From Parasedimentitalea psychrophila (lineage in GTDB: Bacteria > Pseudomonadota > Alphaproteobacteria > Rhodobacterales > Rhodobacteraceae), in NCBI RefSeq assembly GCF_030285785.1, contig NZ_CP127249.1, positions 1 through 64,000 on the forward strand: a DNA stretch of 64,000 bases, given 5' to 3'. Below the pieces are notes generated by a model, which had not been told where the DNA came from, did no database searches, and worked only from the letters and a program-made list of their open reading frames with translations. Each line of letters opens with the position of its first letter. Within the stretch, counting starts at the first letter, position 1. Below are positions 42,261-63,522 of the stretch, piece by piece. The position numbers and the translations under genes are program-made.

Positions 42261-42262
42261 CG

Positions 42263-42706
42263 CTATTTCACCAGCTGCGCAGAGGATTTCGAGCCCAGCT
42301 CTAGGATTGGGAAACAATCCATCTGATCCTCGTTCTGCGGTTGGCATGAGGTCACATCATGCAGTAGAATTTCCGAGATATTGGCGCAGGAAATCTGCGG
42401 AATTTCGAATAGTTTCAAGGTTGTACGCTGTACCGGTAGCGGTGCGGCGTCAATCGACAGCAACCGGTCGATCACCCCTTGTCCGTCCAGAATCGCCAGC
42501 GACATTTCAAAGCCAGCAAAGCTTTTCCCGGTTTGGTTTCGAAACAGAAAGAACGCCCGGCAGCCGCCGCCTTCGATCTCTTCTACCTTGTTCAACTCGA
42601 CCTTTAGCAGGCCTGTTAACTGGCCGGTTTCGGCATGGCCGGTCACCGGCAGTGTCACCGGCAGTGTCGCCAGCAAGCCTGCAGCAACCATGGATTTCAA
42701 ATTCAT
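42263..42706 (-). CDS. Unknown exported protein of the ExbBD operon
   Basis: A 147-residue protein with a signal peptide (MVAAGLLATLPVTLPVTGHA) and four cysteines in the mature part (GGCRAFF, ISCANIS, TSCQPQN, DCFPIL), which suggests two disulfides in a periplasmic domain. GGAG upstream of the ATG supports the start. The family was not recognised. Tight linkage to the ExbB gene (two-base gap) implies a role with the motor. Confidence 0.72.
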   Translation of the reverse strand: MNLKSMVAAGLLATLPVTLPVTGHAETGQLTGLLKVELNKVEEIEGGGCRAFFLFRNQTGKSFAGFEMSLAILDGQGVIDRLLSIDAAPLPVQRTTLKLFEIPQISCANISEILLHDVTSCQPQNEDQMDCFPILELGSKSSAQLVK

Positions 42707-44864: not shown

Positions 44865-45380
44865 ATGGCCGGCAGTTCACAGAAATTCATAGCGCGAAAT
44901 CGGGCGCCAAGAGTTCAGATCGAATATGATGTCGAACTTTATGGCGCCGAGAAAAAGGTCCAGCTTCCCTTTGTGATGGGGGTGGTGAGCGATCTGGTTG
45001 GCAAATCCGAGGTGGAGCAGCCGAGCGTTGCCGATCGGAAATTCCTGGAAATTGATGTCGACAATTTTGACGACCGGATGAAATCGATGGCCCCGCGGGC
45101 GGCGTTTACTGTGCCCAACACCCTGACCGGTGAGGGCAATCTGGCGGTCGATATTACATTTGAGAGCATGGATGATTTCAAACCTGCCGCCATTGCCGCC
45201 AAGGTGGCGCCGCTGCGTGAACTGCTTGAAGCCCGCACCCAGCTGTCCAACCTGATGACCTATATGGACGGCAAGACCGGGGCCGAGGATCTGATTTCAA
45301 AAATCATTCAAGACCCAAGCCTGTTGAAAACCCTCGCGGCGCAGGCAGCGCCGGGTGGCAGCAGCGACGCTGAAGAATAA
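44865..45380 (+). CDS. tssB: T6SS contractile sheath small subunit TssB
   Basis: A 171-residue VipA/ImpB protein that forms the contractile sheath with TssC. Family stretches are RVQIEYDVELYGAEKKVQLP, NFDDRMKSMAPRAAFTVPNT, LLEARTQLSNLMTYMDGKTG. Length is normal. The tssC start follows 11 bases after the stop. A second, closely similar TssB domain starts the fusion gene at 56679, so this replicon carries two related copies. Confidence 0.96.
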   Translation: MAGSSQKFIARNRAPRVQIEYDVELYGAEKKVQLPFVMGVVSDLVGKSEVEQPSVADRKFLEIDVDNFDDRMKSMAPRAAFTVPNTLTGEGNLAVDITFESMDDFKPAAIAAKVAPLRELLEARTQLSNLMTYMDGKTGAEDLISKIIQDPSLLKTLAAQAAPGGSSDAEE

Positions 45381-46953: not shown

Positions 46954-47454
46954 ATGGCTGCTAACATGTTTGTCAAAATTTCGGACATAACAGGCGATGC
47001 AATGGAGACAGGTCACAAGGACTGGATCGTTGTTCAATCTGCCAGTTGGAATGTTGAACGTGCGGTTGAAATGACCGATCTGGGCTCGACCCAGCGGATG
47101 CATGCCAACTCGAACTTTGGTAAGGTCGAGCTGTCATCCCAAATGGGCAAGGCGTCGAATGATCTTGCGCTGTCGGTTGCAAACGGCACTGTCCGCAAGG
47201 AAATCAAAATGGATTGGTGTCGCTCGGGTGACAGCGCCGCTGATGGCCTGCTGGTCTATTGTATCTGGAAGCTGAAAGACGTGGTGATCGATAGCTATTC
47301 GCTGTCGTCCAGCGAAGATGGTATTCCGGAAGAGACCTGGACACTGGCCTATGCTGCGATGGAAATCGAGTATAAGTCGACCGACCAGAAAACCGGCAAA
47401 CTGAAGACTGAAGGCAACTTTAAGTGGAACGTTCAGACTGGCAAAGTCGAGTAA
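46954..47454 (+). CDS. hcp: T6SS tube protein Hcp (TssD)
   Basis: A 166-residue Hcp family protein, forming hexameric rings of the secreted inner tube. The family layout is seen from MFVKISDITGDAMETGHKDW to the C-terminal KTEGNFKWNVQTGKVE. AAGGAAA upstream of ATG 46954 supports the start. A strong terminator directly follows, which would give hcp more transcript than the baseplate genes downstream. Confidence 0.95.
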   Translation: MAANMFVKISDITGDAMETGHKDWIVVQSASWNVERAVEMTDLGSTQRMHANSNFGKVELSSQMGKASNDLALSVANGTVRKEIKMDWCRSGDSAADGLLVYCIWKLKDVVIDSYSLSSSEDGIPEETWTLAYAAMEIEYKSTDQKTGKLKTEGNFKWNVQTGKVE

Positions 47455-47498: not shown

Positions 47499-47531
47499 GT
47501 CCAATAGATTTTAGCGACGGAGCACTGTGTG

Positions 47532-48335
47532 ATGACACCCGAAGAGCATCTAAAATCTGGTGATCCCGCGGCGGCGCTAAAGGCGCTGCAAGACCGGGTG
47601 CGCGCCGACCCGTCGGATGCCAAGCTGCGTATCTTTCTGTTCCAGCTCTTGTGTGTGCTGGGCGATTGGAAACGCGCCATCGCGCAGTTGAAACTGAGCG
47701 CTGAACTAGACGAAGGCGCCACCCTGATGGCCAAGGCCTACCGCGAGGCGATCATCTGCGAGGTTTACCGCGAAAAGGTCTTCGCAGGCGAAAAAGACCC
47801 GATGATCTTTGGCGAGCCCGAAGAATGGCTGGCGCTGTTGATTGAGGCTCAGAAATTATTGGCGCAGGGTAAGGTGGAAAAGGCCGCCGCGCTGCGCGCC
47901 CGCGCCTTTGACGGCGCCCCTGCCAGCACCGGGGAGATCAACGGCGAACGGTTCGACTGGATCGCGGATGCCGATATGCGCCTGGGTCCGGTGCTTGAAG
48001 TGATTGTAAACGGCCGCTATTTCTGGCTGCCTTTTGCGCAGATCAGCAAGTTGGAGATCGAAGAGCCCTGCGACCTGCGGGACGCCGTGTGGACGGCTGG
48101 TACCCTGACGCTGGTCAACGGGGGCGAAGTGGCGGTGCTGATTCCGACCCGCTATCCAGGCTCGGCCACTGCCGAGCCATCGCTAATGCTGGCGCGGGCC
48201 ACCGACTGGCGCGATGCCGGCCACGACACCTTTGTCGGCTTGGGGCAACGGTTGTTGACCACCGAGAAGGGCGATTTTGCCCTGATGGATCTGCGCAGCT
48301 TGCAGATAGATGGCCAAGAGGTCGCCAATGGCTGA
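47532..48335 (+). CDS. tagJ: T6SS accessory protein TagJ (ImpE/SciE)
   Basis: A 267-residue ImpE-family protein. The N-terminal helical half (AALKALQDRVRADPSDAKLR, LFQLLCVLGDWKRAIAQLKL) resembles tetratricopeptide-like repeats; the C-terminal half (FDWIADADMRLGPVLEVIVN, YFWLPFAQISKLEIEEPCDL) is the TagJ-specific domain. TagJ binds TssB and is thought to help sheath recycling with ClpV. CGGAG lies ten bases before ATG 47532; a GTG three bases earlier is the alternative. Its presence marks the imp-like T6SS lineage. The stop overlaps the tssE start. Confidence 0.92.
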   Translation: MTPEEHLKSGDPAAALKALQDRVRADPSDAKLRIFLFQLLCVLGDWKRAIAQLKLSAELDEGATLMAKAYREAIICEVYREKVFAGEKDPMIFGEPEEWLALLIEAQKLLAQGKVEKAAALRARAFDGAPASTGEINGERFDWIADADMRLGPVLEVIVNGRYFWLPFAQISKLEIEEPCDLRDAVWTAGTLTLVNGGEVAVLIPTRYPGSATAEPSLMLARATDWRDAGHDTFVGLGQRLLTTEKGDFALMDLRSLQIDGQEVANG

Positions 48336-48825
48336 CAAGACCCTTGGCGAACGCCTGCAGCCTTCCTTGCTGGACCGGCTGACAGATCAGCAACCGGCAA
48401 ATCTGAAGGAAACACGGGATTCGCGGGTCATTGACCTCAACCGCCTGCGCGAGATCATCCAGCGCGATCTGTCCTGGCTGTTGAACACCCATAGCGCCGA
48501 AACGCATTTTGACACCGAAAAATTTCCCTCGGTGGCGCGGTCTGTGATCAACTATGGCTTGTCCGAAGTGACGGGCGAATATTCCACTGATGAAAAAGCC
48601 GAGGCCATCCGCCGCTCGATCGAGCAGGCCATTTCCACCTACGAGCCGCGCATCATCGAAGGCTCGGTTGATGTTCTGTTGAGCAGCGGCACCAATGACA
48701 CCAAAATGACCGTTGGTCTGGATATCCGGGCTGACATGTGGGCACAGCCAATGCCGCTGGAATTGTTCCTGCGCAGCAAGGTTGATTTGACCACCGGCGA
48801 AGTCGCAGTGGAAAGGGGGCTGTAG
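48328..48825 (+). CDS. tssE: T6SS baseplate protein TssE
   Basis: A 165-residue gp25-like wedge protein. It contains ERLQPSLLDRLTDQQPANLK, INYGLSEVTGEYSTDEKAEA and the conserved end of the lysozyme-like gp25 fold (TYEPRIIEGSVDVLLSSG). ATG 48328 overlaps the tagJ stop by eight bases (ATGGCTGA). An upstream in-frame ATG at 48310 lies further inside tagJ and is less likely. Confidence 0.93.
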   Translation: MADKTLGERLQPSLLDRLTDQQPANLKETRDSRVIDLNRLREIIQRDLSWLLNTHSAETHFDTEKFPSVARSVINYGLSEVTGEYSTDEKAEAIRRSIEQAISTYEPRIIEGSVDVLLSSGTNDTKMTVGLDIRADMWAQPMPLELFLRSKVDLTTGEVAVERGL

Positions 48826-48826: not shown

Positions 48827-50704
48827 TTGGACACTCGGCTTCTGGAACATTATGAAAACGAACTGAACTATCTGCGCGATATGGGCGGAGAATTTGCCGC
48901 CGCCTATCCAAAGATTGCCTCGCGTCTGGGCATGGAGGGGATCGAGGTTCTGGATCCTTACGTGGAACGTCTGCTCGAAGGGGTGGCGTTTCTGTCGGCG
49001 CGGGTGCAGCTGGAGCTGCAACTGCAATATCCTAATTTCACCGCCAACCTGCTGGAAATCATCTATCCGCATTATCTGGCGCCAACCCCGTCGATGATGA
49101 TCGCCGCCTTCAAGCCCGACGTCAGCAACTCGGCGGTCAAAAGCGGCTATGTGTTGCCGCGCCATTCCATTCTGCGCAGCCGCTTGACCGAGGGGGAACA
49201 AACCGCCTGCGAATTCCGCACTGCCTCCGAGATGACCATGTGGCCGATCGAAATCACCGAGGCCGAGTATATCGACGGGCGTGGCGAACTGGTGGCGGCG
49301 GGGGTGGCCAGCGGGGTGGATGCCCGCGCCGGTATCCGGCTGCGGCTGCGGCGCAGTGATGGCGAGGCGATCTCGGATCTGGCGATGAATAATCTGACGC
49401 TGTATCTGAGCAACGCGGCGGGCAATAGCTGGCCGCTGCTGGAACTGCTCTGCACCCAGGTGCAGGGGCTGGTGGCGCGCTCTACCGACCGGCGCGCTGA
49501 TTGGCACATGGCGCTGCCAGAGGGGCGGATTGTGCAGCGCGGGTTTGAGGCGGACGAGGCCCTGTTGCCCACCCCGCGGCAGGTGTTTGACGGCTATCGC
49601 CTGCTGCAGGAATACTTTGCCATGCCCGAGCGGTTCCGCTTTGTCGAGTTGCAGGGGCTGCGGACAGCGTTGCAACGGGCCAAGGGTCCCGAGGTGGATA
49701 TCTATATCCTGCTGCGCGAAGGCATGAGTGAGGTCGCTCCGGTGGTGGCGCCCGAGGTGTTTACCCTCAATGCCGTGCCCGCAGTGAACCTGTTCGAGAA
49801 ACGCTGCGACCGGGTGCAGATCGCGCCGCATGACACCGAACATCACGTGGTGCCCAACCGCACCGCCGGGCTGGATTTTGAGATTTACAGTCTGAACACT
49901 GTCACCGGCATCAGCGGCGAGGGTGAAGACGATGTGATTTTCCGGCCGTTTTACTCGGCCACAGATTTTACCGCCTCGGGCGAGAATTTTCCGGCCTATT
50001 ACAGCGTAAAACGACGGATGCGGCAGCGCTCCGAAAAGGAACGGCTGCGCGGGGTGCGGAGTTCCTACCTTGGCTCCGAGATGTATCTGACACTGGTGGA
50101 CCGGTCCCAGGCCCCCTACGGGGCTGATCTGGAACAGCTGGCGGTCAAGGCCTTGTGCACAAACCGTGATTTGCCGATGCTGCTGGCCACCGGGGATGAC
50201 AATGTGTTCCACCTGCCCGAAGGCGGCCCGGTGACCTCGATCACCCTGCCGGTCTCTCCGACCCGGCCGCGTCCGACTCTGGCACAGGGCGATACCGCCT
50301 GGCGGCTGATCTCACATCTGAGCCTGAACTATGCCTCTATTACCGAAACCGGCAAGGGGCAGTCGGCAGCGGCGCTGCGCGAACTGGTCGGGCTTTATGC
50401 GCCACTGGGCAACCGGGTGACCGAGAAACAGCTGGAGGGGATCGTGTCGATTTCGACCCGCCCCATCGTGCGCCGGATGAGCGACGAAGTTCTGTCCACC
50501 GCGGTGCGGGGTCTGGAGATCACTCTGGGCTTTGACGAAAGCTTTTTCGAGGGCAGCAACATCTATGCGCTTGGCGCTGTGCTGGAACGGTTCTTGCGCC
50601 GCTATTCCACCATCAATTCATTCACCGAAACTGTCCTAAAAACTGAAAAACGCGGGGAAATTGCCAGATGGCGACCGGAAAAAGGTCTGGGCCGGATACT
50701 CTGA
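48827..50704 (+). CDS. tssF: T6SS baseplate protein TssF
   Basis: A 625-residue TssF/ImpG/VasA protein of the baseplate wedge. The N-terminal signature LEHYENELNYLRDMGGEFAA and YPKIASRLGMEGIEVLDPYV is clear, as is the C-terminal ITLGFDESFFEGSNIYALGA. The start is TTG 48827, supported by AAGGGGG seven bases upstream and by the match of the first residues to the family. It overlaps tssG by 37 bases. Confidence 0.95.
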   Translation: MDTRLLEHYENELNYLRDMGGEFAAAYPKIASRLGMEGIEVLDPYVERLLEGVAFLSARVQLELQLQYPNFTANLLEIIYPHYLAPTPSMMIAAFKPDVSNSAVKSGYVLPRHSILRSRLTEGEQTACEFRTASEMTMWPIEITEAEYIDGRGELVAAGVASGVDARAGIRLRLRRSDGEAISDLAMNNLTLYLSNAAGNSWPLLELLCTQVQGLVARSTDRRADWHMALPEGRIVQRGFEADEALLPTPRQVFDGYRLLQEYFAMPERFRFVELQGLRTALQRAKGPEVDIYILLREGMSEVAPVVAPEVFTLNAVPAVNLFEKRCDRVQIAPHDTEHHVVPNRTAGLDFEIYSLNTVTGISGEGEDDVIFRPFYSATDFTASGENFPAYYSVKRRMRQRSEKERLRGVRSSYLGSEMYLTLVDRSQAPYGADLEQLAVKALCTNRDLPMLLATGDDNVFHLPEGGPVTSITLPVSPTRPRPTLAQGDTAWRLISHLSLNYASITETGKGQSAAALRELVGLYAPLGNRVTEKQLEGIVSISTRPIVRRMSDEVLSTAVRGLEITLGFDESFFEGSNIYALGAVLERFLRRYSTINSFTETVLKTEKRGEIARWRPEKGLGRIL

Positions 50705-51726
50705 GCCATTTTGACAAACTGGTCGAAAACCCTGGAAAACATCATATTTTTCAGGCGCTCAGAGTGTTGGAAGCCCATTACGCCGAGGCCCCGCGTCTGG
50801 GCGAAAGCCGCCGCCCGCGGCAGGATAAGCTACGTCTGGGCCAAGAGGCCGAGCTGGCGTTTCCGCCCAACACAATTGCCGATTTTACCCCACCACAGGG
50901 TGACCAGCCGGCGCGGCTGACCAATCGCTTCTTTGGGCTGTTTGGGCCGCAGGGCCCGTTGCCGCTGCACCTGACCGAATACGCCCGCGACCGCAAACGC
51001 AACCACCGGGACCCGACGATGGTTGGCTTTGCCGATATGTTGACGCACCGGATGATGGGGCTGCTGTACCGGGCCTGGGCCCAGGGCCAGCCGGCGGTGA
51101 GTTTCGACCGGGATGAGGACCCACTGGCGCGCAAGGTGGCGTCGCTGGCCGGGTATAACGGTGACAGTTTGCGGGGCCGCGATGCGATGCCGGACATGGC
51201 CAAGCTGCATTTCGCCGGCCATCTGGGACAAGAGGCCAAAAACCCCGAGGGGCTGGTCTCTATCCTGTCGGCGTTTTTTGATGTGCCGGTGCAATTGCAG
51301 GAATTTATCGGCAGCTGGCTGGATCTGGAACCGGATGACCAATGGCAGTTGGGCCGGGCCGGCGGGCTGGGTCAATCCACCAGCATCGGGACAAAAGTCT
51401 GGAGCCGCAGTGCCAAGTTTCGGCTGCGGATCGGCCCTCTGAGCCTGGAGGATTACCAACGCCTATTGCCCGGTGGCCCGGCGCTAACCCGGATGCGGGC
51501 GATTGTCCGCTCTTATATTGGCGATGTGCTGGATTGGGACGTCAATCTGGTGCTGGCCGGCGATCAGGTGCCGCGCGCCAGTCTGGGCGGCACCACCCAA
51601 TTGGGCCACACGTCCTGGATCGGCAGTCGTCCAGACCCCGATGCGGAACGCCCAGATGTTGATGATTTATACCTGTACCCCAGTCTTGGGGATCTACAGG
51701 CAGACAGTTTAAAGGGAGGTATTTGA
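50668..51726 (+). CDS. tssG: T6SS baseplate protein TssG
   Basis: A 352-residue TssG/ImpH/VasB wedge protein that pairs with TssF. Signatures are NPGKHHIFQALRVLEAHYAE, LTNRFFGLFGPQGPLPLHLT, RDPTMVGFADMLTHRMMGLL and VWSRSAKFRLRIGPLSLEDY. The N-terminal 37 bases overlap tssF, typical for this pair. The clpV start follows one base after its stop. Confidence 0.95.
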   Translation: MATGKRSGPDTLSHFDKLVENPGKHHIFQALRVLEAHYAEAPRLGESRRPRQDKLRLGQEAELAFPPNTIADFTPPQGDQPARLTNRFFGLFGPQGPLPLHLTEYARDRKRNHRDPTMVGFADMLTHRMMGLLYRAWAQGQPAVSFDRDEDPLARKVASLAGYNGDSLRGRDAMPDMAKLHFAGHLGQEAKNPEGLVSILSAFFDVPVQLQEFIGSWLDLEPDDQWQLGRAGGLGQSTSIGTKVWSRSAKFRLRIGPLSLEDYQRLLPGGPALTRMRAIVRSYIGDVLDWDVNLVLAGDQVPRASLGGTTQLGHTSWIGSRPDPDAERPDVDDLYLYPSLGDLQADSLKGGI

Positions 51727-51727: not shown

Positions 51728-54436
51728 ATGACTGAGATCAGCCGCGTGGCCCTGTTCGGAAAGCTGAACAAATTGGGCTACCAAGCCGTCGAAAGTGCAA
51801 CCGTGTTCTGCAAGATGCGGGGCAATCCATATGTTGAGCTGGTGCATTGGATGCATCAGATCCTGGCGGGACAGGACAGCGACCTGCACCGGATTGTCGC
51901 CCATTATGACCTCGACCCTGGCAAGATTGCCGCCGAGATGACCCGGTCACTGGATATGCTACCGCGCGGCGCCTCGACCATTTCAGACCTCAGCGATCAC
52001 CTGATGGACGCGATGGAGCGTGGCTGGGTCTGGGGCTCGCTGCTGTTTTCAGCCAATCAGGTGCGCAGTGGCTATCTGCTACTGGGGATGCTGAAAACCC
52101 CAGCCCTGCGCAATATCCTGACGTCGATGTCGCCCGAACTGGCGCGCATCGGGGCGGATGATCTGGCCGACAATTTCATCAAGATTACTGATGGATCGCC
52201 CGAGGAAACTATGGGCGCGCAGGATGGCTCGACCACCGGCGGTGGGGCTGCACCGGGCGAGGCCTCGGACGCGATGGCGCCGGCCGTGATGGGCAAGGGC
52301 GAGGCGCTCGAGAAGTTTTGCACCGATATGACCGAGCAGGCCCGCAATGGCGAGATTGATCCCATCGTTGGCCGCGACGAAGAGATCCGCCAGATTGTTG
52401 ACGTGCTGATGCGGCGGCGGCAAAACAACCCGATCCTGACCGGTGAGGCCGGGGTGGGCAAAACCGCGGTGGTCGAAGGCTTCGCGCTGCGGATTGCGCG
52501 GGGCGATGTGCCACCTGCCTTGCATGATGTGCGGCTGCTGATGCTGGACGTGGGCCTGTTGCAGGCCGGCGCCAGCATGAAGGGCGAGTTTGAAAACCGT
52601 CTGCGTCAGGTGATTGACGAGGTTCAGTCCAGTGATGTGCCGATTGTGCTGTTCATTGACGAGACCCATACCCTGATCGGCGCCGGCGGGGCTGCGGGCA
52701 CCGGCGATGCTGCCAACCTGCTGAAACCGGCTCTGGCGCGCGGCACCCTGCGCACCATCGGCGCGACGACCTGGGCCGAGTATAAGAAATACATCGAAAA
52801 AGACCCGGCACTGGCCCGGCGCTTTCAGGTGGTGCAGGTGGACGAGCCGAGCATCCCCAAGGCCATTCTGATGATGCGGGGCATTGCCTCGATGCTGGAA
52901 AATCACCACCGGGTGCAGGTGCTGGACGAAGGCATCGAGGCCGCCGTCAGCCTGTCGGCGCGTTACATCCCGGCGCGGCAACTGCCGGATAAATCGGTCA
53001 GCCTGCTGGACACCGCCTGCGCCCGCGTGGCGGTGAGCCAGCACGCGGTACCGGCCGAGGTGGACGATTGCCGCCGCCACATCGAGGCGCTGACCACCGA
53101 GCTGCTGATCATCGGTCGCGATGAAACTGCCGGGTATGAGGTCGGCGACCGACGCGAGGCGGTTGAGACAGCCAAGAGTGCTGAGGAAGACCGGCTGGTT
53201 GGCCTGAGCGAACGCTGGGATGCAGAGAAGGCGGTTGTCGAAGAGATCCTGGATCTGCGCGCCAAACTACGCGAGGGCGCCGCACCTGTGGATGCCCCTG
53301 CAGAGACTGAGGACGAGACTGGCGATAGCCCGCTGGACGATGCGGCCCGCGCCGATCTGATGCAGCAGTTGCGGGCAAAGAACACCGAGCTGGAAACCCT
53401 GCAGGCGGAAAGCCCGTTGATCCTGCCGATTGTCGATCATCAGGCGGTGGCCAGCGTTGTTGGTGACTGGACCGGCATTCCAGTGGGTCGCATGGTCAGC
53501 GATGAGATCGAAACCATTCTCAACCTGGAAGAACATCTGGCCAAGCGGGTGATCGGACAGGATCACGCGATGAAGATGATTGCCAAGCGCATTCAAACCA
53601 GCCGCGCCGGGCTGGACAACCCATCGAAACCAATTGGGGTGTTCCTGCTGGCCGGGACCAGCGGTGTCGGCAAGACCGAAACCGCACTGGCACTGGCCGA
53701 GGTGCTCTATGGTGGTGAACAGAACGTCATCACCATCAACATGTCGGAATACCAAGAGGCCCATACGGTCAGCTCCCTGAAGGGCGCGCCTCCGGGCTAT
53801 GTCGGCTACGGCGAAGGCGGTGTGCTGACCGAGGCGGTGCGGCGCAAGCCATACTCGGTTGTGCTGCTGGACGAGGTTGAAAAGGCCCACCCCGATGTGC
53901 ACGAGGTGTTTTTCCAGGTCTTTGACAAAGGCGTGATGGAAGACGGCGAGGGCCGGGTGATCGACTTTAAGAACACCCTGATCCTGCTGACCTCAAACGT
54001 AGGGTCCGAGTTGATTATGGATCTGTGCAGCGACCCGGACCTGTTGCCGGAACCCGAAGGCATCACCAAGGCACTGCGCGATCCGCTGCTGAAAGTCTTT
54101 CCGGCGGCTTTGCTGGGGCGTCTGGTCACCATTCCCTATTACCCGCTGAGCCCGGACATGATCGCCAAGATCACCGTGCTGCAACTGAACCGGATCAAAA
54201 AACGGGTGATGGAATCGCACAACGTGCCGTTTGAGTACTCGGATGCGGTGGTCGATAAGATCGTTGAGCGCTGTCAGGAACTTGAATCCGGTGGCCGCAT
54301 GATCGACGCGATTGTGACCAATACCATGCTGCCCGATATCTCGGCTGAGTTCCTGAAGCGCCTGATGCAGGGCACAGAAGTGACCAAGGTTGGGATCGAC
54401 GTCACTGACGGAGAGTTTTCTTATAGTTTCGATTAG
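51728..54436 (+). CDS. clpV: T6SS sheath-recycling ATPase ClpV (TssH)
   Basis: A 902-residue ClpB-type AAA+ ATPase that disassembles contracted sheaths. The ClpN domain is at about residues 1-150. The first ATPase has Walker [14 protein letters not shown] near residue 240 and Walker [17 protein letters not shown] coiled-coil middle region follows. The second ATPase has [19 protein letters not shown] near residue 643, [19 protein letters not shown] and [20 protein letters not shown] upstream is strong. A 92-base gap follows before the next gene. Confidence 0.96.
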
Positions 54437-54528
54437 ACAGTTGGTTTTCTTGGCGCTGTGATGGAGATTTTTGATCCCCTCAACGTTGCCAATTCCAATT
54501 CATAGAACCAAAGGTAAGGATATCCAAA

Positions 54529-55764
54529 ATGGCCAAAACAACTGTCACCAAACATAAGTTCTATGTTGTCGATCTGATCCGTAGCAAACCTAAAACCACA
54601 TATCTCGAAATCCCGAAATACCGGGTTGATGTGGAAATTGAGGTGACGACCAAGGCGACGTTGAAAAAGCCTGCGGAAGTGCCAAGCACCAAGATGAAGC
54701 GCTTGGAAGAGGCGGGCAGGGCCGAGCTGGAGCGCTATGAGACGATCATTGCGCAAGAAGCGGCAACGCTGGACGCTAAGGTCGCCAAATTGATGGCAAC
54801 CCCCGGTGAAAAAGCCAAAGCTGACGCTGAAAAAATGATTCAGGCCAGTAACGCCATGATCAAAAATGCCCTGGCCTCGGCTGAGGGCGCAGCGCAAAAG
54901 GCTATTGAGACCCGCCTGAAGAAAGAAGCCAAGGGCGATAGTTTGCTGACCGAAGCGCGGGTTAAAACCACGCTTAAGGTTACAGTGGGGGTCATCAAGA
55001 TTGCCGGATCTGTGGCCAAGCTGGTGGCGACGTCAGGGGCCGAAGTCACCTCGTATAAAACCATTCTGGTTCAGGTGGTGAAGTTGGGGCTTGAAGTCAA
55101 TCAACAGCTGAAGAATGAGGCCAAGCTGCGCAAGGATCTGTATAGTGGCATACAGGCATATATCGTACTGCGTGGCACCGTTTTGATGCAGGCAGCTGAA
55201 CGGCAGGGGATCACCGATACCAAAGGAATTTCCCCCAAACATCCACTGGATGCCGTTAAAAAACTGACTGCAAAAGCCTTGGCCATGGGGGAAGAAGTGA
55301 CCAAGGGCCGGGATGCGAAAAGTATCGCCAAAGAGCTGTTGAGTGCCACCGTCAAGGGGATCAAAGCCAAGGTCAATGATGCGGAAAGTGCCCGTAAAGC
55401 CTATCGGGAGCACACTACGAAGACCCGTCAAAAAACCGATGATCTGGGTGGTGCAGCCGATAAGTTGATGAAAAAGGCCCGCGCCTCCAAAACTTTGAAA
55501 GACGGGATCAAATTGGGCGCGGAATGTATGACCCTGAAACGGGCAGCCAGCGAATTGGCCGCCAAGTTGCAGGACCGTGAAAAATTTCTGGAGGAGATGC
55601 AGGCCCTGATGGAAGGCAACGGTATGAAAGTGGATGATGCCACCACCATCGAAAAGCTGAAAGCGCTGGATAAGAAAAGCATCGCCACCGAGGCGGGTAC
55701 GGTTTTGAGCACTATCAAGACCATTAAATCCATGGTGGGTAATGTTGCCGATGCCGTCGGCTAA
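54529..55764 (+). CDS. Unknown lysine-rich helical protein in the T6SS cluster
   Basis: A 411-residue protein not recognised. About the first 50 residues look like a small beta domain (KFYVVDLIRSKPKTTYLEIP); the rest is almost wholly predicted helix by composition, rich in Lys, Ala and Glu, with long coiled-coil-like stretches (KLMATPGEKAKADAEKMIQA, LMKKARASKTLKDGIKLGAE). A mildly hydrophobic segment is TLKVTVGVIKIAGSVAKLVA. There is no signal peptide. AAGGTAAGGA precedes the ATG. Placed between clpV and the ion-channel gene in the same direction, it could be an effector, a tether or a structural accessory. Third-position GC is lower than in its neighbours. Confidence 0.72.
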   Translation: MAKTTVTKHKFYVVDLIRSKPKTTYLEIPKYRVDVEIEVTTKATLKKPAEVPSTKMKRLEEAGRAELERYETIIAQEAATLDAKVAKLMATPGEKAKADAEKMIQASNAMIKNALASAEGAAQKAIETRLKKEAKGDSLLTEARVKTTLKVTVGVIKIAGSVAKLVATSGAEVTSYKTILVQVVKLGLEVNQQLKNEAKLRKDLYSGIQAYIVLRGTVLMQAAERQGITDTKGISPKHPLDAVKKLTAKALAMGEEVTKGRDAKSIAKELLSATVKGIKAKVNDAESARKAYREHTTKTRQKTDDLGGAADKLMKKARASKTLKDGIKLGAECMTLKRAASELAAKLQDREKFLEEMQALMEGNGMKVDDATTIEKLKALDKKSIATEAGTVLSTIKTIKSMVGNVADAVG

Positions 55765-55834
55765 TAGGCTGGAACGTTCGGTCCTGGCAGCATGTGAAAT
55801 GTTGCCAGGCGTCTAACAAAGGAGACAAGAATTC

Positions 55835-56689
55835 TTGGAAACGGACCTTCAAGAAACCACGTTGCGTGACCGCGCTCGGGCCTTTGTAGAGCGTGATAGT
55901 GTCAGGAACACGATCCTTGGCGTTATCATTTTCAATGCAATCACTCTGGGGTTGAGTACGTCATCTACGGTGACAGATCAGATTGGCGGATTGCTGTCAG
56001 TAATTGACCGCACCGTGCTGGCGATCTTTGTCGCGGAACTGGCGCTCAAGTTTTTTGCCTATGGCTGGCGGTTTTTTGCTTCGGCCTGGAATATATTTGA
56101 TCTGCTGGTGGTTTCGGTTGGATTGTTGCCCGATAAACAGGGGCTGTCGGCGCTGCGCGGGCTGCGTGTGGTGCGCGCCTTGCGATTGCTGTCGGTGGTG
56201 CCGCAGATGCGGTCCGTGGTGCAGGCGTTGCTGGATGCGCTGCCTGGCATGGGCGCCGTCATCGTGATGCTGTCGATTGTCTATTATGTCTTCGCGGTGA
56301 TGGCGACGCTTATGTATGGGCCATTTTTTGACGAATGGTTCGGCACCCTGGGCCGGTCGATGTATTCGCTGTTCCAGATCATGACACTGGAAAGCTGGTC
56401 GATGGGGATTGTGCGGCCGGTGATGGTGGTGTTCCCGATGGCCTGGGTGTTTTTTGTACCCTTTATCATCATCACCGCCTTCTCGGTGTTGAACCTGTTC
56501 ATCGGTCTGCTGGTCAACACCATGCAGACCGCGGTGGAGGATGACGACGAGGCGGAATTTGAAAAGCTGCGCGAATTGGTGCGCACAGAAACCGATATTG
56601 TAGACGTGCATGTGATGGAACTGCGGCAGGAGATCCGATCTCTGCGCGAGGAACTGTTAGCACCACGGGGAGAGTCGAATGGCCAGTAG
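55835..56689 (+). CDS. NaChBac/NavAb-type voltage-gated sodium channel
   Basis: A 284-residue single-domain channel. S1 is ILGVIIFNAITLGLSTS, S2 has the conserved Glu in FVAELALKFFAYG, S3 the Asp in WNIFDLLVVSVGLL, and S4 the gating Arg at every third place (LRGLRVVRALRLLSVV). S5 is followed by the pore loop with selectivity filter TLESWSM, the bacterial Nav filter, and then S6 (FIIITAFSVLNLFIGLLVNT). A C-terminal coiled coil (VMELRQEIRSLREELLA) would tetramerise it. The start is TTG 55835 with GGAG 11 bases upstream. Its last 11 bases overlap the TssB/TssC fusion gene, implying coupled translation within the T6SS operon. Confidence 0.93.
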   Translation: METDLQETTLRDRARAFVERDSVRNTILGVIIFNAITLGLSTSSTVTDQIGGLLSVIDRTVLAIFVAELALKFFAYGWRFFASAWNIFDLLVVSVGLLPDKQGLSALRGLRVVRALRLLSVVPQMRSVVQALLDALPGMGAVIVMLSIVYYVFAVMATLMYGPFFDEWFGTLGRSMYSLFQIMTLESWSMGIVRPVMVVFPMAWVFFVPFIIITAFSVLNLFIGLLVNTMQTAVEDDDEAEFEKLRELVRTETDIVDVHVMELRQEIRSLREELLAPRGESNGQ

Positions 56690-59600
56690 CTCGCAAAAAT
56701 TTATCGCACGTAATCGCGCTCCGCGGGTGCAGATCGAATATGACGTCGAACTGTACGGTGCCGAGAAAAAGGTGCAGCTGCCCTTTGTCATGGGGGTGAT
56801 GAGCGATCTGGTGGGAAAGTCCAAGGTGGCGCAGCCCGCCGTGGCGGATCGAAAATTTCTAGAAATTGACGGTGATAATTTTGACGACCGGATGAAGGCA
56901 GTGGCCCCGCGTGCGGCCTTTAGCGTGCCGAATACGCTGACCGGAGAGGGCAATCTGGCGATTGATCTGACGTTCGAGAAAATGTCGGATTTCTCTCCCG
57001 GAGCCATTGCTGCGGGGGTGGACAGTCTGGCGCCGCTGCTGGAGGCCCGCAGTCAGCTGAACAATCTGATGGCCTATATGGATGGCAAATCCGGGGCTGA
57101 GGCGCTGATCGAAAAAATTCTCGGCGATACCAGCCTGCTGTCGGCCTTGTCCTCGGACGGGCCGGATGCAGAGGTCGGCATGGCGGCGGCACTGTCCAGC
57201 CTGCGCGACGTTGAGCTGCCGCAGGCAGAGGTTGACCAAAGCGGCGATATTCTGGCTGGCCTGAGCGCGCGCGCGCCGGAAGAGACCGCTAAAGCGGATG
57301 ATCTGGGGTCGGCTCTGTCCAGTCTGGCAGCGGTTGAGATTGAGGAGACGCCTGCTGATGACAGCACCGATATACTGGGCGACCTCGCGGCGCAGGAGTT
57401 GGTCGAAGCGGTCGACACCAGCACTGATGATGCGCTGAGCAGTCTGGCGGCGGTTGAGGTCGACGAGGCTCCTGAGGACGACAGCGCTGATATACTGGGC
57501 GACCTCGCGGCGCAGGATGTGGCCGAGGCGGTCGACACCAGCTCTGATGATGCGCTGAGCAGTCTGGCGGCGGTTGAGGTCGACGAGGCTCCTGAGGACG
57601 ACAGCGCCGATATACTGGGCGACCTCGCGGCGCAGGATGTGGCCGAGGCGGTCGACACCAGCTCTGATGATGCGCTGAGCAGTCTGGCGGCGGTTGAGAT
57701 TGACGAGACGCCTGAGGATGACGGCACCGATATATTGGGCGACCTTGCGGCGCAGGATCTGGCCGAGGCGGTCGATACCAGCTCTGATGACGCGCTGAGC
57801 AGTCTGGCGGCGGTTGAGGTCGACGAGGCTCCTGAGGACGACAGCGCTGATATACTGGGCGACCTCGCGGCGTTGGATGTGGTCGAGGAGGTCGACACCA
57901 GTTCCGATGACGCGTTGAGCAGCCTGGCGGCGGTTGAGATTGGCGAGGGTCCCGAGGACGACGGCGCCGATATACTGGGCGACCTTGCGGCGCTGGATCT
58001 GGCCGAGGAGGTCGATACCAGTTCCGATGACGCGTTGAGCAGGCTGGCAGCGGTTGAGATTGACGAGGCTCCTGAGGACGACAGCGCTGATATACTGGGC
58101 GACCTTGCGGCGCTGGATGTGGCGGAGGAGGTCGATACAGGGGCTGATGATCTGTCGGCTTTGCTGGGCGGGCTGGACGATGTGGCGACGCCCCAAGACA
58201 ATATAGATGACATTCTGGGCGGTTTGGGCGACCTGGGTGCCGAGGAGACCGACGCGCCCTTGGATGCTGGTGGGCTGGATGACCTGTTGGGAGATCTGGA
58301 GGCCGCCGATGCCGAAACCGAAGAGGCGGACGCGCAAGGGCTGGACGATCTGTTGGGCGACCTGTCGGATGCCGAGGACGGGGATGATCTGGATGGGTTG
58401 TTCGCTGACCTGGAAGACGATGCCGCAGCCGAGCCGGAGGGCGGTGATGGCCTTGATGATTTGCTGGGCGATCTGACCGGGGCGGATGACAGCGGGCTTG
58501 ATGCGCTGCTGGGCGACACCTCCGAGGGTGAGGACGGTGATTTGGATCTGGACGATCTTTTGGGATCGTTGGAGGATGACAGCCCTGAGGCGGGGGATGA
58601 TTTAGACGATCTTCTGGGTGCGTTGGACAGTACTGATGACAGTACCGATGACGGTGCGGCAGAGGCTGCGGAGGCAGTGAAACTCAGCCAGACCGAAGAG
58701 CCTGAATTTGCCTATGGCACCCTCAGTGCGAGCCGACCTGAGCCGCAGCGATTGGTACGCAAGCGGTTCCGACTGGCCATCCTTGGGGATTTCTCGGGGC
58801 GGGCGGCGAAAGGCATTGTCGAGATCGGAGATCAGTTGGCGGCGCGTCGGGCGGTCATTCTGGACCCGGATACTGTTGAAGACGTGATTGAAAGTTTTGC
58901 CACCGAATTGGTGTTGCCGATTGGCCGGGATGGCGCTGGCATGGCGGTGAAGCTGGGCGGGCTGGACGATCTGCACCCGGATGAGCTGTACGAAAACGTC
59001 GAGCTGTTTTCCGAGTTGGTCGGGCTGCGCAAGCAATTGCAAAGCGGGGTGACGGCGGATCATGCGGCCAGCACACTTCGCGCCTGGGGTGAGAAACACG
59101 GCACCCGCGTCAGCCCTCCGAAACCACGCTCCGGCGGCAATGCGGTGCCTGCGGATTGCCGGTTGAGCGCGTTTCAGCTGTTGGTTGGCGATGCCGAGAA
59201 CCAGTTGGGGCAGGTCTCGCCGGTGCAGGATCTGCTGGCGCGGGTGGTTGGCCCGCATATTCGGGCGCTGCCCAATGCGGATGTGGCCGCAATGATTGTG
59301 GCGGTGGACGCGGCGCTGTCGGATGCCATGCGCATGGTGTTGCACCACCCGGAGTTCCAGTCGCTGGAGGCGCAGTGGCGGTCGCTGGATTTGATCGCGC
59401 GATCGGTTGAGGACGACGACACGCTGGACGTGATGCTATATGATATCTCGGCCGAGGAACTGGCGGCAGATTTGACCGCGAGTGAGGATCTGAGCGACAG
59501 CGGTTTCGTCAAGTTGCTGACCGGTGAGCCGCTGGACGAGGAAAACGGACGCGGCGGATATTCGGCGCTGATCGGGTTGTATCAGTTTGAGGAAACCCCG

Positions 59601-60428
59601 CCCCATGCGGAATTGCTGGGCCGGATTGCGCGGGTTGCGGCGCATGTGGATGCGCCTTTCCTGGCCGGAATATCGCCTGCATTCCTGGAGACGGAAAAAG
59701 ACAAACTGCCATCCGTGGTGACTAAGGCCTGGGATACGCTGCGGGGCATGGGTGAGGCTGGGCATTTGGGTCTGGTGTCGCCACGCTTTATGCTGCGCCG
59801 TCCATATGGCGCCAAGAGCGAGCCGATCTATGAGTTCCAGTTTGAGGAATTCACCGAAAGCGAAGGTCTGCGCGGCCTGCTTTGGGCCAACCCGGTGGTG
59901 CTGGCGGCGATCCTTTTGGCGCGCTCGTTCAAACAGAACGGGGCCTCGATGGGGCTGGGGCAGATCATGTCGCTGGGTGACATTCCGTTCCACTATGTCA
60001 ACGACCGATTTGGCGATCAGGTGGCGCTGCCCTGCACCGAGCGCAATATAAATCTGGACAAAATCGCGCTGGCACAGGAGCGCGGATTTATGGCGGTGTC
60101 GGCGATCAAAGGACGGGATGAAATCCGCCTGACCTCGTTTGGCTCGCTGGCGGGCGGGGATATTCTGGGGCCCTGGACAGGCATGCCAGCGCCGGACCCG
60201 TCGCCGCCGGATCCAAAACCCGCCGCTGCGGCTGACCCGGCTGGCGATGATCTTGACGATCTGGGGCTGGACGATCTGGATCTGGACCTTGGCCTTGATG
60301 ACGATGATAGTGGTCTGGGTGATCTTGACGATCTTCTGGCTGGATTTGGCGATGATACCGATGACAGCGGCGAGGATGACGATGACAGTATGGATGCCGA
60401 TCTTGCTGCGCTGTTGGACGATTTATGA
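56679..60428 (+). CDS. TssB-TssC-like fusion with acidic repeat linker
   Basis: A 1249-residue protein. Residues 1-165 are a TssB domain nearly parallel to the tssB product. Residues ~211-490 are seven 40-residue acidic repeats (core DILGDLAA, then VDTSSDDALSSLAAVE), from an exact 120-bp DNA period. Residues ~525-660 carry many LDDLLGDL-type motifs. At ~686-800 is a second VipA-like segment (RFRLAILGDFSGRAAKGIVE), then at ~850-1165 a TssC-like region (MVLHHPEFQSLEAQWRSLDL, SALIGLYQFEETPPHAELLG, PRFMLRRPYGAKSEPIYEFQ). An acidic tail closes the protein. GGGGAG precedes the ATG within the sodium channel gene. It may correspond to the second TssC (ImpD/TssC40) of imp-type systems. Function is unproven. 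Confidence 0.85.
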   Translation: MASSSQKFIARNRAPRVQIEYDVELYGAEKKVQLPFVMGVMSDLVGKSKVAQPAVADRKFLEIDGDNFDDRMKAVAPRAAFSVPNTLTGEGNLAIDLTFEKMSDFSPGAIAAGVDSLAPLLEARSQLNNLMAYMDGKSGAEALIEKILGDTSLLSALSSDGPDAEVGMAAALSSLRDVELPQAEVDQSGDILAGLSARAPEETAKADDLGSALSSLAAVEIEETPADDSTDILGDLAAQELVEAVDTSTDDALSSLAAVEVDEAPEDDSADILGDLAAQDVAEAVDTSSDDALSSLAAVEVDEAPEDDSADILGDLAAQDVAEAVDTSSDDALSSLAAVEIDETPEDDGTDILGDLAAQDLAEAVDTSSDDALSSLAAVEVDEAPEDDSADILGDLAALDVVEEVDTSSDDALSSLAAVEIGEGPEDDGADILGDLAALDLAEEVDTSSDDALSRLAAVEIDEAPEDDSADILGDLAALDVAEEVDTGADDLSALLGGLDDVATPQDNIDDILGGLGDLGAEETDAPLDAGGLDDLLGDLEAADAETEEADAQGLDDLLGDLSDAEDGDDLDGLFADLEDDAAAEPEGGDGLDDLLGDLTGADDSGLDALLGDTSEGEDGDLDLDDLLGSLEDDSPEAGDDLDDLLGALDSTDDSTDDGAAEAAEAVKLSQTEEPEFAYGTLSASRPEPQRLVRKRFRLAILGDFSGRAAKGIVEIGDQLAARRAVILDPDTVEDVIESFATELVLPIGRDGAGMAVKLGGLDDLHPDELYENVELFSELVGLRKQLQSGVTADHAASTLRAWGEKHGTRVSPPKPRSGGNAVPADCRLSAFQLLVGDAENQLGQVSPVQDLLARVVGPHIRALPNADVAAMIVAVDAALSDAMRMVLHHPEFQSLEAQWRSLDLIARSVEDDDTLDVMLYDISAEELAADLTASEDLSDSGFVKLLTGEPLDEENGRGGYSALIGLYQFEETPPHAELLGRIARVAAHVDAPFLAGISPAFLETEKDKLPSVVTKAWDTLRGMGEAGHLGLVSPRFMLRRPYGAKSEPIYEFQFEEFTESEGLRGLLWANPVVLAAILLARSFKQNGASMGLGQIMSLGDIPFHYVNDRFGDQVALPCTERNINLDKIALAQERGFMAVSAIKGRDEIRLTSFGSLAGGDILGPWTGMPAPDPSPPDPKPAAAADPAGDDLDDLGLDDLDLDLGLDDDDSGLGDLDDLLAGFGDDTDDSGEDDDDSMDADLAALLDDL
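57310..58149 (+). repeat. Seven tandem 120-bp repeats in the fusion gene
   Basis: The unit begins about GCGCTGAGCAGTCTGGCGGC and returns every 120 bases without drift: near 57310, 57430, 57550, 57670, 57790, 57910 and 58030. Units two and three are almost identical; the outer units diverge. A degenerate copy of the same peptide pattern precedes them. The exact period keeps the reading frame and suggests growth by unequal crossover. Confidence 0.9.
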
Positions 60429-60491
60429 TGTTAACATTTAGCATATCAATGTATTTTTTGTGCCCGGTTTGCCCCGGTGAAAAGAGGCGTC

Positions 60492-62591
60492 ATGGCTGAA
60501 AGTAAACCACATGAGCATAGCATTGTTTGGATGACCGGCAGTTATAAGGCCCGTGATCTGCTGCTGAAACGTGCGATCATACGCGAAGGTCTGAGCATGT
60601 TGACCGAAACGACGGTTGAGTTTCAGTGCAAGAACAAGGCGGTGAAGCTGGATCAGATTGTCGGCCAAACCATGAACCTGCATGTGATGACCGATGACGG
60701 TGTTGATCAGAAGTATTCAGGCCTGTGTATCTCGGTTGAAAATCTGGGGATGCGGGATGGATATGGTCACTACGTGGCCGAGGTGCGGCCGTGGTTCTGG
60801 CTGCTGACCCGGACGCAGGATTGCCGGGTGTTTCAGAACCTGTCGGCGGTCGACATCATCAAGCAGATCCTGAACGAACATGGCTTTAGCGATTTCAGGG
60901 ACAGGTTGAGCGGCAGCTATGAAGCACGTGAATACTGTCTTCAGTATCGTGAAAGCGATTTTGATTTCCTCTGCCGCCTGATGGAGGAAGAGGGAATCTA
61001 TTACTATTTCGACAGTACCAGCGATAAGAACGCGGCTGAAAAGCTGCTGCTCTGCGATGGTGTCAGCGGCCATTCTCCGATCAGTGGCACGTCGACGATA
61101 GAATTCCACGCGCGCGATGACGCGGACCGGCGGCGCAAGGATCACATCGCGGAATGGGGCCGCGAAGAGATGCTGACACGGGGCAAAGTCACCCTGAATG
61201 ATTTTGATTTCCTGTCGCCGTCTGCGGATTTGAAGGTGAACAACAAAATCGAAAAAGGCAGTCATAACCACAAAGATCATGAGGTTTATGACTATCCGGG
61301 TCACTATCGCAAAAACACCGGGCTGGGCAACACTCAGGCGCGGGTGCGGATGGAGGCCGAGGCGATACGGCACAAACGCTGGCGTGGCGCGTCAAGCGTG
61401 CGGGGGCTGGCAGCAGGCTATACTTTCAAGCTGAAGAACCACCCGGAAAAGGACGCCAACGCCGAATATCTGGTGGTGGATTGCATCCACTACCTACAGG
61501 TGGCCGGCGATTTCTCTGAGCGCGAGTCACAGAAGAAACGACCTCAGAACAGTGGCGAGATGCGCCACGACCTGAAGGCCGCGAACATGGACTTTCCCGA
61601 AGAGATGAAGGGCGATGCCTATTCTTCGACCTTTGGGGCGATTCCAAAGCAGGACCAATACCGTGCGCCGCTGGCGACGCCCTGGCCCGAGATTCCCGGG
61701 CTTCATACGGCCATCGTTACCGGCCCGGCAGGTGATGAAATCTGGACCAATGAACATGGCCAGATCAAGGTGCAGTTCCATTGGGACCGCGAAGGCAAAA
61801 GTGACGAAAAATCCTCGTGTTTTGTGCGGGTGGTGACGCCGTGGTCCGGCAAGGGTTGGGGCATGGTGGCGGTGCCGCGTATTGGTCAAGAGGTGGTCAT
61901 TCAGTTCGAAGAGGGCGACCCTGACCGGCCAATCTGCACCGGTATGCTGTATAACAAGGACACCATGCCGCCCTATAACTACCCGGATGATCAGACCCAG
62001 ATGGGGTTCAAGACCAACTCGTCCAAGGGGGGCGGCGGCTATAACGAGTGGATGTTCGAGGACAAAAAAGACGCCGAAATGATGCGGGTGCAGGCGCAAA
62101 AAGATCATCAGATGTTGGTTAAGAACAAGTCGGTAGAGACCATCGGCCTGGATGAGATAGACGCTGGTGCTCATGACGAAGACGGCTGTGTTAGCCGCGT
62201 GGTCAAGCAACATGTGACAGAGACCCTGCTGGATGGGGATCACTATTTCACCATCGAGACTGGCAGTCAGGAAATTGAGATCAAGACGGATAAGACCCAG
62301 ACCATCGAGGGCAAGCATACCAAGACCATTACCGGCAATGATGCGACAACTGTGAAAACCGGTAATATGACGGTGGATGTCAGCTCGGGTAAGATTGAAA
62401 TGACCGCAGCAATTGAAATTTTGCTTAAGGTTGGCGGATCTTCGATTAAGATCGACAATTCCGGGGTGACAATCAAAGGGCCAATGATCAAGATCGAAGG
62501 CACGGCCATGGTCGAAGCCAAGGCCCCCATGACGACCGTTAAGGGAGACGCAATGCTGACCCTTAAGGGTGGTCTGACGATGATAAACTAG
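60492..62591 (+). CDS. vgrG: T6SS spike protein VgrG (TssI)
   Basis: A 699-residue VgrG, forming the trimeric tip of the Hcp tube. The gp27-like part has LLKRAIIREGLSMLTETTVE, YCLQYRESDFDFLCRLMEEE and GIYYYFDS. The gp5 OB-fold has VTGPAGDEIWTNEHGQIKVQ and WDREGKSDEKSSCFVRVVTP. It ends in a beta-helix needle with repeats such as TDKTQTIEGKHTKTITGNDA. No effector domain is attached. ATG 60492 with AGAGG was chosen over GTG 60477. It is followed by a small unknown gene, PAAR and FHA genes. Confidence 0.95.
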   Translation: MAESKPHEHSIVWMTGSYKARDLLLKRAIIREGLSMLTETTVEFQCKNKAVKLDQIVGQTMNLHVMTDDGVDQKYSGLCISVENLGMRDGYGHYVAEVRPWFWLLTRTQDCRVFQNLSAVDIIKQILNEHGFSDFRDRLSGSYEAREYCLQYRESDFDFLCRLMEEEGIYYYFDSTSDKNAAEKLLLCDGVSGHSPISGTSTIEFHARDDADRRRKDHIAEWGREEMLTRGKVTLNDFDFLSPSADLKVNNKIEKGSHNHKDHEVYDYPGHYRKNTGLGNTQARVRMEAEAIRHKRWRGASSVRGLAAGYTFKLKNHPEKDANAEYLVVDCIHYLQVAGDFSERESQKKRPQNSGEMRHDLKAANMDFPEEMKGDAYSSTFGAIPKQDQYRAPLATPWPEIPGLHTAIVTGPAGDEIWTNEHGQIKVQFHWDREGKSDEKSSCFVRVVTPWSGKGWGMVAVPRIGQEVVIQFEEGDPDRPICTGMLYNKDTMPPYNYPDDQTQMGFKTNSSKGGGGYNEWMFEDKKDAEMMRVQAQKDHQMLVKNKSVETIGLDEIDAGAHDEDGCVSRVVKQHVTETLLDGDHYFTIETGSQEIEIKTDKTQTIEGKHTKTITGNDATTVKTGNMTVDVSSGKIEMTAAIEILLKVGGSSIKIDNSGVTIKGPMIKIEGTAMVEAKAPMTTVKGDAMLTLKGGLTMIN

Positions 62592-62600
62592 GTGGGACTG

Positions 62601-63203
62601 ATGATTTTTAATGACCTGGTAAAAATGCCGACTGACCCGGTGGCGAAATTGCTGTCACGGGCCAATGTCATGTTGAAAACACCGTTGCAGGCGCCACCAA
62701 CGGCGGGCGCCTCTGAGGTGCTGCAAGAGCTGAGCGACAAGGGCGCGCTGGTGGACCTGTTGCGGCTGCTGGCGATCTTGCTGCCGCCGCGCGAGAGGGT
62801 CTGGTGGGCCTGTCTGGCGGCCCGCGATTACATCGGGCCGCGCTCAGATAACGACCCGCCCTCGCTGACCGCATCCGAGGCCTGGGTTTATGATCCGTCG
62901 GAGGAAAACCGCGATGCGGCGCGGATAACCTTGGACCACGCCTATGTCGATGATGACACGGTGAATTGCGCGCTGGCTGTGTTGTATGCTGATGGCACCC
63001 TGGGACCGGGGGACCTGAAACAATATCCCGCGCCTGCCGGGGCCTCGGAAACCGCAGCATTTGCCATGAATATGGTAGCCTTGTCAGAATTGTCTGATAA
63101 GTTTGAAGAGCATGGCCAGATTTTGGTCAAGCGGGCGGTGAATATTGGACGCGGTGGCAACGGGCAGGCGGATTCTGTTCAGCCCGCAAAAGATAACGAT
63201 TAA
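62601..63203 (+). CDS. Small T6SS-associated protein of unknown function (DUF6931-like)
   Basis: A 200-residue protein between vgrG and the PAAR gene. It is largely helical, with LVDLLRLLAILLPPRERVWW and ACLAARDYIGPRSDNDPPSL as its most distinctive stretch, and a second helical part (AAFAMNMVALSELSDKFEEH). This resembles what I recall of DUF6931 proteins found beside T6SS spike genes, but that is from memory. AGGTGG five bases before ATG 62601 favours this start over GTG 62592. It could be an adaptor or chaperone loading cargo on VgrG or PAAR. Confidence 0.78.
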   Translation: MIFNDLVKMPTDPVAKLLSRANVMLKTPLQAPPTAGASEVLQELSDKGALVDLLRLLAILLPPRERVWWACLAARDYIGPRSDNDPPSLTASEAWVYDPSEENRDAARITLDHAYVDDDTVNCALAVLYADGTLGPGDLKQYPAPAGASETAAFAMNMVALSELSDKFEEHGQILVKRAVNIGRGGNGQADSVQPAKDND

Positions 63204-63222: not shown

Positions 63223-63522
63223 ATGGGAATGCCCCAAGCCCGTCTTACGGATCTACATGCCTGCATGTTGCCTTCGATACCGCCGCCGCCGGTGCTGCCG
63301 GTGCCGACCCCTATTTTGCCGCCCTGTGCGGTGACTGTGCTGGTCGGTAAACTGCCGGCCGCGCGGCTAACGGATATGGTGACTGCGGCGCCGCCGCATC
63401 CCATTATCAAAGGCTCGATGACTGTTTTGATCAACAAACTCCCGGCGGCCCGCATTGCGGACAACGCCGCTTGCGGTGGCTTGATCCTCAAAGGCGAGTT
63501 TACTGTTTTGGTCGGAGGATAA
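63223..63522 (+). CDS. PAAR-domain spike tip protein
   Basis: A 99-residue PAAR protein that caps the VgrG needle with a zinc-bound cone. Paired PAAR-type segments are seen: MPQARLTDLHAC, GKLPAARLTDMV and NKLPAARIADNAACGG, with His and Cys residues placed as metal ligands (HAC, PPHP, ACGG). A Pro-rich stretch (IPPPPVLPVPTPILPP) lies in the first half. No toxin domain is fused, so any effector is carried separately. AGGAGGAAGG lies upstream of the ATG. Confidence 0.93.
   Translation: MGMPQARLTDLHACMLPSIPPPPVLPVPTPILPPCAVTVLVGKLPAARLTDMVTAAPPHPIIKGSMTVLINKLPAARIADNAACGGLILKGEFTVLVGG

Follow-up and report, generated by a model that had tools for sequence, protein, structure and literature searches.

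A voltage-gated sodium channel gene at a conserved place in the type VI secretion operon of Rhodobacterales

Bacterial voltage-gated sodium channels (BacNavs) are ancestors or cousins of the channels of nerve and muscle. They have been discussed in connection with pH and motility and, to our knowledge, their natural role is poorly known. The TLESWSM filter of NavAb and NavMs selects Na+, and when depolarisation opens such a channel, Na+ enters and the depolarisation deepens. Type VI secretion systems (T6SSs) of the H1 type have a post-translational trigger pathway that combines a Ser/Thr kinase with FHA.

A roseobacter T6SS1 that includes a sheath fusion named TssCL has been described (PMC9515649). 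As far as the accessible text of that paper goes, its gene content, gene order and TssB-TssB-TssC(N) fusion architecture are the same as those of the locus reported here, the roseobacter clusters are considered nearest to H1-T6SS, and Ruegeria sp. ANG-S4, which corresponds to our locus L036, is included. The terms ‘channel’, ‘sodium’ and ‘ion trans’ have no occurrence in its main text, supplements aside, and ‘channel’, ‘sodium’ and ‘ion transport’ have none in the accessible part of PMC4337385; a further report (PMC11556119) concerns a plasmid T6SS without a channel. T6SSs are linked with membrane voltage through the ion-selective, channel-forming effectors Tse4 (PMC12169545) and Tse5 (PMC9637101). 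According to the accessible parts of these reports, the two are injected toxins, unlike the BacNav of a core operon considered here. A link of T6SSs with a voltage-gated sodium channel was not found among the matches listed in the literature within our reach, from which most subscription papers and the supplements were absent. No channel link was found among the matches listed for roseobacter T6SSs, BacNav physiology, TssB/TssC fusions and TssCL. The channel and the T6SS are thus each of a known kind, and their union is, to us, apparently new. The channel, with its linkage to TssCL, is an addition to the roseobacter T6SS1 of PMC9515649.

The T6SS operon of the window and its channel

A contig of 91,805 bases (C3, 91.8 kb) begins with the window, by which we mean the whole 64,000-base stretch of DNA that was analysed. 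As parA/parB-like ORFs are present on this contig, it is probably a plasmid. The names of the window genes were partly assigned by order in annotated plasmids, and those assigned by position and order are marked as such below.

43752..44798, + strand: tssA (PF06812, 2.6e-27)
44865..45380, + strand: canonical tssB (by position and order)
45392..46888, + strand: canonical tssC, with VipB and VipB_2 domains
46954..47454, + strand: hcp (by position and order)
47529..48335, + strand: tagJ (ImpE; PF07024, 4e-43)
48310..48825, + strand: tssE (by position and order)
48827..50704, + strand: tssF (by position and order)
50668..51726, + strand: tssG (PF06996, 2.1e-100)
51728..54436, + strand: clpV (TssH), laid out like tssH in annotated plasmids
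54529..55764, + strand: slot gene, encoding a helical protein of 411 aa, a candidate effector of slot family F0
55835..56689, + strand: T6SS-type voltage-gated sodium channel (BacNav), 284 aa
56144..56212, + strand: S4 and start of the S4-S5 linker of the channel, with R108, R111, R114, R117 and R126
56384..56404, + strand: selectivity filter TLESWSM of the channel (residues 184-190)
56525..56686, + strand: cytoplasmic C-terminal tail of the channel after S6, 54 aa, coiled-coil-like
56679..60428, + strand: TssB/TssC sheath fusion (TssCL), consisting of TssB, acidic repeats, the TssC N-terminal domain and an acidic tail (PF05591, PF05943)
60477..62591, + strand: vgrG (domain search)
62592..63203, + strand: DUF6931 protein (PF22011, 1.7e-43)
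63223..63522, + strand: PAAR protein (position as in annotated plasmids)

Further along the same contig, genes for FHA and for a Ser/Thr kinase follow, and other ORFs were interpreted by reading as TssK, TssL, TssM, TagF and PppA. The cluster resembles H1-type T6SSs, which use PpkA/PppA/FHA threonine phosphorylation, in the presence of TagJ, FHA and Ser/Thr kinase. It differs from them in the addition of a voltage-gated channel and TssCL, and the neighbouring ORFs, as far as they could be judged by reading, revealed no TagQRST-like sensor gene. Upstream of tssA, positions 36349-42706 encode ExbB, two ExbD proteins, a DUF4384/TonB-like protein and a YceI-OmpA protein, together with an ORF that reads as caspase-like. 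We considered whether the ExbB/ExbD/TonB-like genes are tied to the channel and rejected this; among the loci examined they accompany all of 8 with the channel but also 6 of 12 without it, and are therefore not channel-specific.

The channel ORF starts with TTG, 3' of AAAGGAG. Homology to BacNavs extends over the whole channel. Pfam Ion_trans is matched at residues 26-235 (E 9.3e-38), and the best relative among solved structures in a phmmer search is 5hvx (3.5e-75, residues 13-244), which we take to be NavMs; the NavAb group ranks after it (8.5e-66 and weaker). In common with NavMs and NavAb, the protein has by sequence a six-segment Ion_trans fold, an S4 ladder, TLESWSM, an S6 Asn and a coiled-coil-like tail. 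Each of the five listed arginines is present in 43/43 T6SS rows, and also in the 26/26 family and 20/20 class comparison rows. The filter is identical in 43/43 T6SS rows, in which R1-R4, the S2 Glu, the S3 Asp and the S6 Asn are likewise invariant. This invariance argues that conduction and voltage sensing have been kept, beyond mere bulk, and the protein seems to be maintained as a working voltage-gated channel. The earlier note had claimed NavAb-type hallmarks for this gene, namely an S4 Arg ladder, TLESWSM and a C-terminal coiled coil, and these claims are borne out by the domain match, the sequence matches to solved relatives and the intact residues, the tail being coiled-coil-like. The median tail length is 53 aa for T6SS rows, 49 for class rows and 37.5 for the remaining rows of the family. 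A longer tail was rejected as a hallmark of T6SS channels, long tails also being found in class-level channels outside T6SSs.

The same note had placed the gene, on the same strand, between clpV-linked genes and a TssB/TssC fusion with an 11-base overlap, and its coordinates, strand and length proved exact; TssCL starts 11 bases before the channel stop. Within 54300-57000, no promoter-like site was found versus 1.8 expected, and terminator-like sites (3 versus 3.2 expected) were at chance level. A stable hairpin without a T-run is present just 5' of the channel (55783-55808; region z -3.7). At L038, a different sequence gives a hairpin at the same place upstream of the channel, and others do likewise; perhaps the hairpin serves mRNA processing or stability.

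Distribution and descent of the T6SS-type channel

We surveyed 394 genomes of the family, of which 263 gave a Nav-like match. The ranked scores display a gap between the 36th genome (328 bits) and the 37th (301 bits). All of the 36 best matches (at least 328 bits; the window itself and the 35 loci L040-L074) lie within a T6SS, and the place and strand of the channel inside the cluster are conserved in 36/36 genomes, our own included. This recurrence of position far exceeds chance. The clpV gene is upstream of the channel in all 36 except L069, where the contig begins 1.5 kb 5' of the channel and clpV accordingly falls on a separate contig (L104). The sheath fusion or its C-terminal half is found 3' of the channel in all genomes but L074; at L040, L044, L047 and L057 the contig ends within the fusion. 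Seven more named loci (L032-L038) match the same placement, L037 being on the same contig as L067. TssG was found in 36/36 channel genomes versus 65 of the other 358.

The weaker Nav matches gave a different picture. The 26 family loci examined (25 from the survey, L075-L099, and L039) had no T6SS query-set match (0/26) within flanks of about 9 kb on each side, or about 5 kb for L075 and one side of L097. One of them, L079 (G000:C1:1661487-1662227), is a second Nav of our own genome, 49% identical to the first, and has no T6SS genes within about 9 kb. In a survey of the class, 118 of 385 genomes had a Nav match; T6SS linkage outside the family was rejected for 20 of the stronger loci (19 genomes), none of which is near T6SS genes, and the Peteryoungia Nav (48% identical) has no T6SS genes nearby either. 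Unlike the other NavMs/NavAb-type channels examined, which are away from T6SS genes, the T6SS-type channel forms a separate branch tied to the operon. Since another Nav-like match is present in 24 of the 36 genomes holding it, the T6SS copy seems to be a specialised one.

Among plasmids, 38 records matched, 21 of them at 60% identity or more, all from Rhodobacterales: 17 from Leisingera and one each from Phaeobacter, Ruegeria, Qingshengfaniella and Parasedimentitalea. The plasmid copies are annotated merely as ‘ion transporter’, and in all three of the plasmids examined in this identity range the channel is in a T6SS. At the record start of Parasedimentitalea marina pW43D (L163, NZ_CP033223.1), the channel annotation is shortened and its neighbours, the sheath fusion among them, are fragmented; this copy therefore looks degenerate and its T6SS is apparently decaying. 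The T6SS-type channel also occurs on chromosome-size contigs, for example G255 C1 (3.9 Mb) and G239 C1 (5.6 Mb). Since 36 of the 394 genomes and, in addition, 21 named plasmids carry the channel, the adjacency is not peculiar to one strain, and its identical place in 36/36 genomes and 3/3 plasmids means that a functional tie to the T6SS is well supported.

The trees constructed were quick ones, with branch support by SH-aLRT only. When 89 channels were placed in a tree, a single branch (SH-aLRT 93) parted the 43 T6SS rows from all others; deeper joins are weak. Distances between channels correlate with those between T6SS cores (Mantel r 0.879, n=41, 0/2000 permutations as high), with r falling to 0.69 without the four deepest lineages. 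Across 11 channel pairs dN/dS is 0.04-0.27, indicating purifying selection. On the T6SS-core tree the channel state changes 9 times, and therefore the T6SS can do without a channel, which is not universally required. This count does not separate gain from loss. Taking into account that the deepest lineages of the subtype (L071-L074) hold the channel, its distribution suggests one gain followed by repeated loss. Judging from sequence comparisons, the channel is very probably a functional part of the T6SS, and the best explanation is that it is a dedicated ion-channel component of Rhodobacterales T6SSs, acquired once and kept.

TssCL and the slot gene as neighbours of the channel

TssCL combines VipA, VipA and VipB domains in one protein, besides the normal tssB and tssC of the operon. 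PF05591 matches residues 10-159 and, weakly, a second stretch, and PF05943 matches residues 871-1156; the NCBIfam matches are TIGR03358 and, below its cut-off, TIGR03355. VipB_2 was not matched in the TssCL of the window and was matched in the canonical TssC of the same operon. The earlier designation as a TssB/TssC fusion therefore needs qualification. A whole TssB is present, with acidic repeats and a weak second TssB-like stretch, but the TssC part consists of the N-terminal domain only. The repeats of the linker (57180-58600) are roughly 40 residues long and DDALSSLAAVEVDEAPEDDSADILGDLAAQ-like. TssCL ranges from 1059 to 1712 aa where the locus is uncut and the start could be assigned. Of the 34 loci with an assignable start, 33 have it overlapping the channel stop by 1-11 bases, and in the 34th TssCL starts 1 base after; only its C-terminal half is found in seven more channel loci, and L074 is without TssCL.

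Genomes without the T6SS-type channel contain 69 T6SS places, of which 39 were examined, 22 of the same subtype and 17 of other subtypes. Both genes are absent in 17/17 of the latter. Counting one locus per genome, 33 have both genes, 16 neither, five TssCL only (L100, L101, L103, L118 and L127), one the channel only (L074) and one is undecided; the two states agree in 49 of 55 loci. Among eight independent pairs, TssCL differs in the same way as the channel in 5-6 and in the opposite way in 0-1. With a median p of 0.0625 this concordance is not significant, but it is suggestive.

At L106, the gap between clpV and vgrG (about 8500-9250, reverse strand) contains a peptide resembling the channel N-terminus (score 56 versus a best of 49 in 300 shuffles) and one resembling the TssCL tail (143 versus 66 in 500 shuffles). 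These remnants are the scar of a joint loss of both genes. The scar was detected only by ORF reading and scoring against shuffles, and tblastn at E 5 gave no channel remnant in channel-less loci. In their stop/start overlap, their mostly joint presence or absence and the joint scar at L106, the channel and TssCL resemble a two-gene module.

One or two ORFs of at least 250 aa occupy the slot between clpV and the channel in 27 of 41 channel loci, and none does so in 14. They comprise three families, F0, F1 and F2 (18, 10 and 4 members), which are highly helical by composition and swap in and out of the slot among relatives; there is a single strongly hydrophobic stretch in F0 and a pair of them in F2. 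We regard the slot proteins as candidate effectors. The 411-aa protein of the window belongs to no Pfam (E 0.001), NCBIfam or PADLOC family, and searches of Pfam, PADLOC and PDB sequences for relatives of the slot proteins gave merely weak coiled-coil-like matches, the strongest being CREPT (1e-05, L063, below cut-off) and LeoBC (0.00018, L034). A protein 28% identical to the 411-aa protein is encoded on a Hyphomicrobiales plasmid (L167, CP131057.1), with no T6SS match within about 9 kb. Hyphomicrobiales UR115 was rejected as a T6SS case; its slot-like protein and Nav are apart, and the stretches examined had no T6SS match.

Two channel-less loci, L109 and L127, have a slot gene, and thus the channel is not simply the immunity protein of the slot protein. 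Together with the 14 slot-less channel loci, this led us to reject cognate immunity as a general rule, and in this form the suggestion in the earlier note that the channel protects from pore-forming effectors is weakened.

Possible roles of the channel

Among the three roles that the note had suggested, voltage or sodium control of the T6SS is favoured over protection and over repair of the membrane potential. Repair is unlikely on physical grounds, because opening of the channel deepens depolarisation. Our tentative proposal, which we regard as possible rather than probable, is that a depolarisation signal carried by the channel gates the T6SS, with TssCL as the likely partner. At rest the channel would be closed. 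Depolarisation caused by a rival's attack, a pore-forming toxin or a breach of the envelope would open it, and the Na+ influx would turn a small or local depolarisation into a rapid electrical and Na+ signal throughout the cell, by which assembly or firing of the T6SS would be gated. The channel would be a sensor-amplifier upstream of these events, acting together with TssCL, which may cap, seed or release the sheath; the translation of TssCL overlapping that of the channel and its lack of the C-terminal sheath domain are the basis for assigning it this downstream part. A stronger version is an electrically excitable weapon, in which depolarisation would produce an all-or-none signal and thereby assembly or firing through the non-canonical sheath subunit. 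We consider this version doubtful.

The main rival to gating is that the channel serves homeostasis or survival, helping an attacking or attacked cell to regain its balance of ions, pH or turgor when the T6SS is active, while leaving firing uncontrolled. The nine tolerated changes on the tree would agree with this, as would the pH and motility context in which BacNavs are discussed and the marine or saline hosts in those named plasmid records that state a source. However, opening would deepen the depolarisation, another Nav-like match already exists in 24/36 genomes and the overlap with the sheath gene is left unexplained, and we judge homeostasis unlikely. The overlap, along with the conserved tail positions in T6SS rows, could also be accommodated if the channel used its C-terminal coiled coil to tether TssCL or the sheath to the membrane, in which case conduction would be incidental. 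Such a scaffold is distinctly unlikely when the filter and gating charges are invariant in 43/43 rows, class-level channels outside T6SSs have long tails too and TssCL occurs without the channel at five loci.

The slot protein may be a pore former against which the channel confers cognate immunity or self-protection, and this would make sense of the slot gene just upstream in 27/41 channel loci and of the hydrophobic stretches in F2 and F0. Apart from the slot-less and channel-less exceptions, one channel family is common to three slot families and independent pairs give no significant association of slot and channel (median p 0.219), making this reading very unlikely. A gene carried by the operon or plasmid without a T6SS role would be in keeping with its location on C3 and on 21 plasmids. 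The long retention under purifying selection, the occurrence on chromosome-size contigs and the overlap with TssCL render such a passenger still less probable. Tse4 and Tse5 provide a precedent for the channel itself being injected to depolarise a target cell. Here, the core-operon place is conserved and effector-like turnover is not seen, there is no conserved immunity-like neighbour and the chromosome commonly encodes another channel of this family; this reading is very improbable.

Our results tie one BacNav lineage to a contractile weapon by position, descent and selection. Natural contrasts are offered by loci that have both genes, only one of the two, or none. If the channel does control firing, excitation-contraction coupling would have a counterpart in bacteria, a BacNav would have a function assigned to it and control of the T6SS would have a new input.
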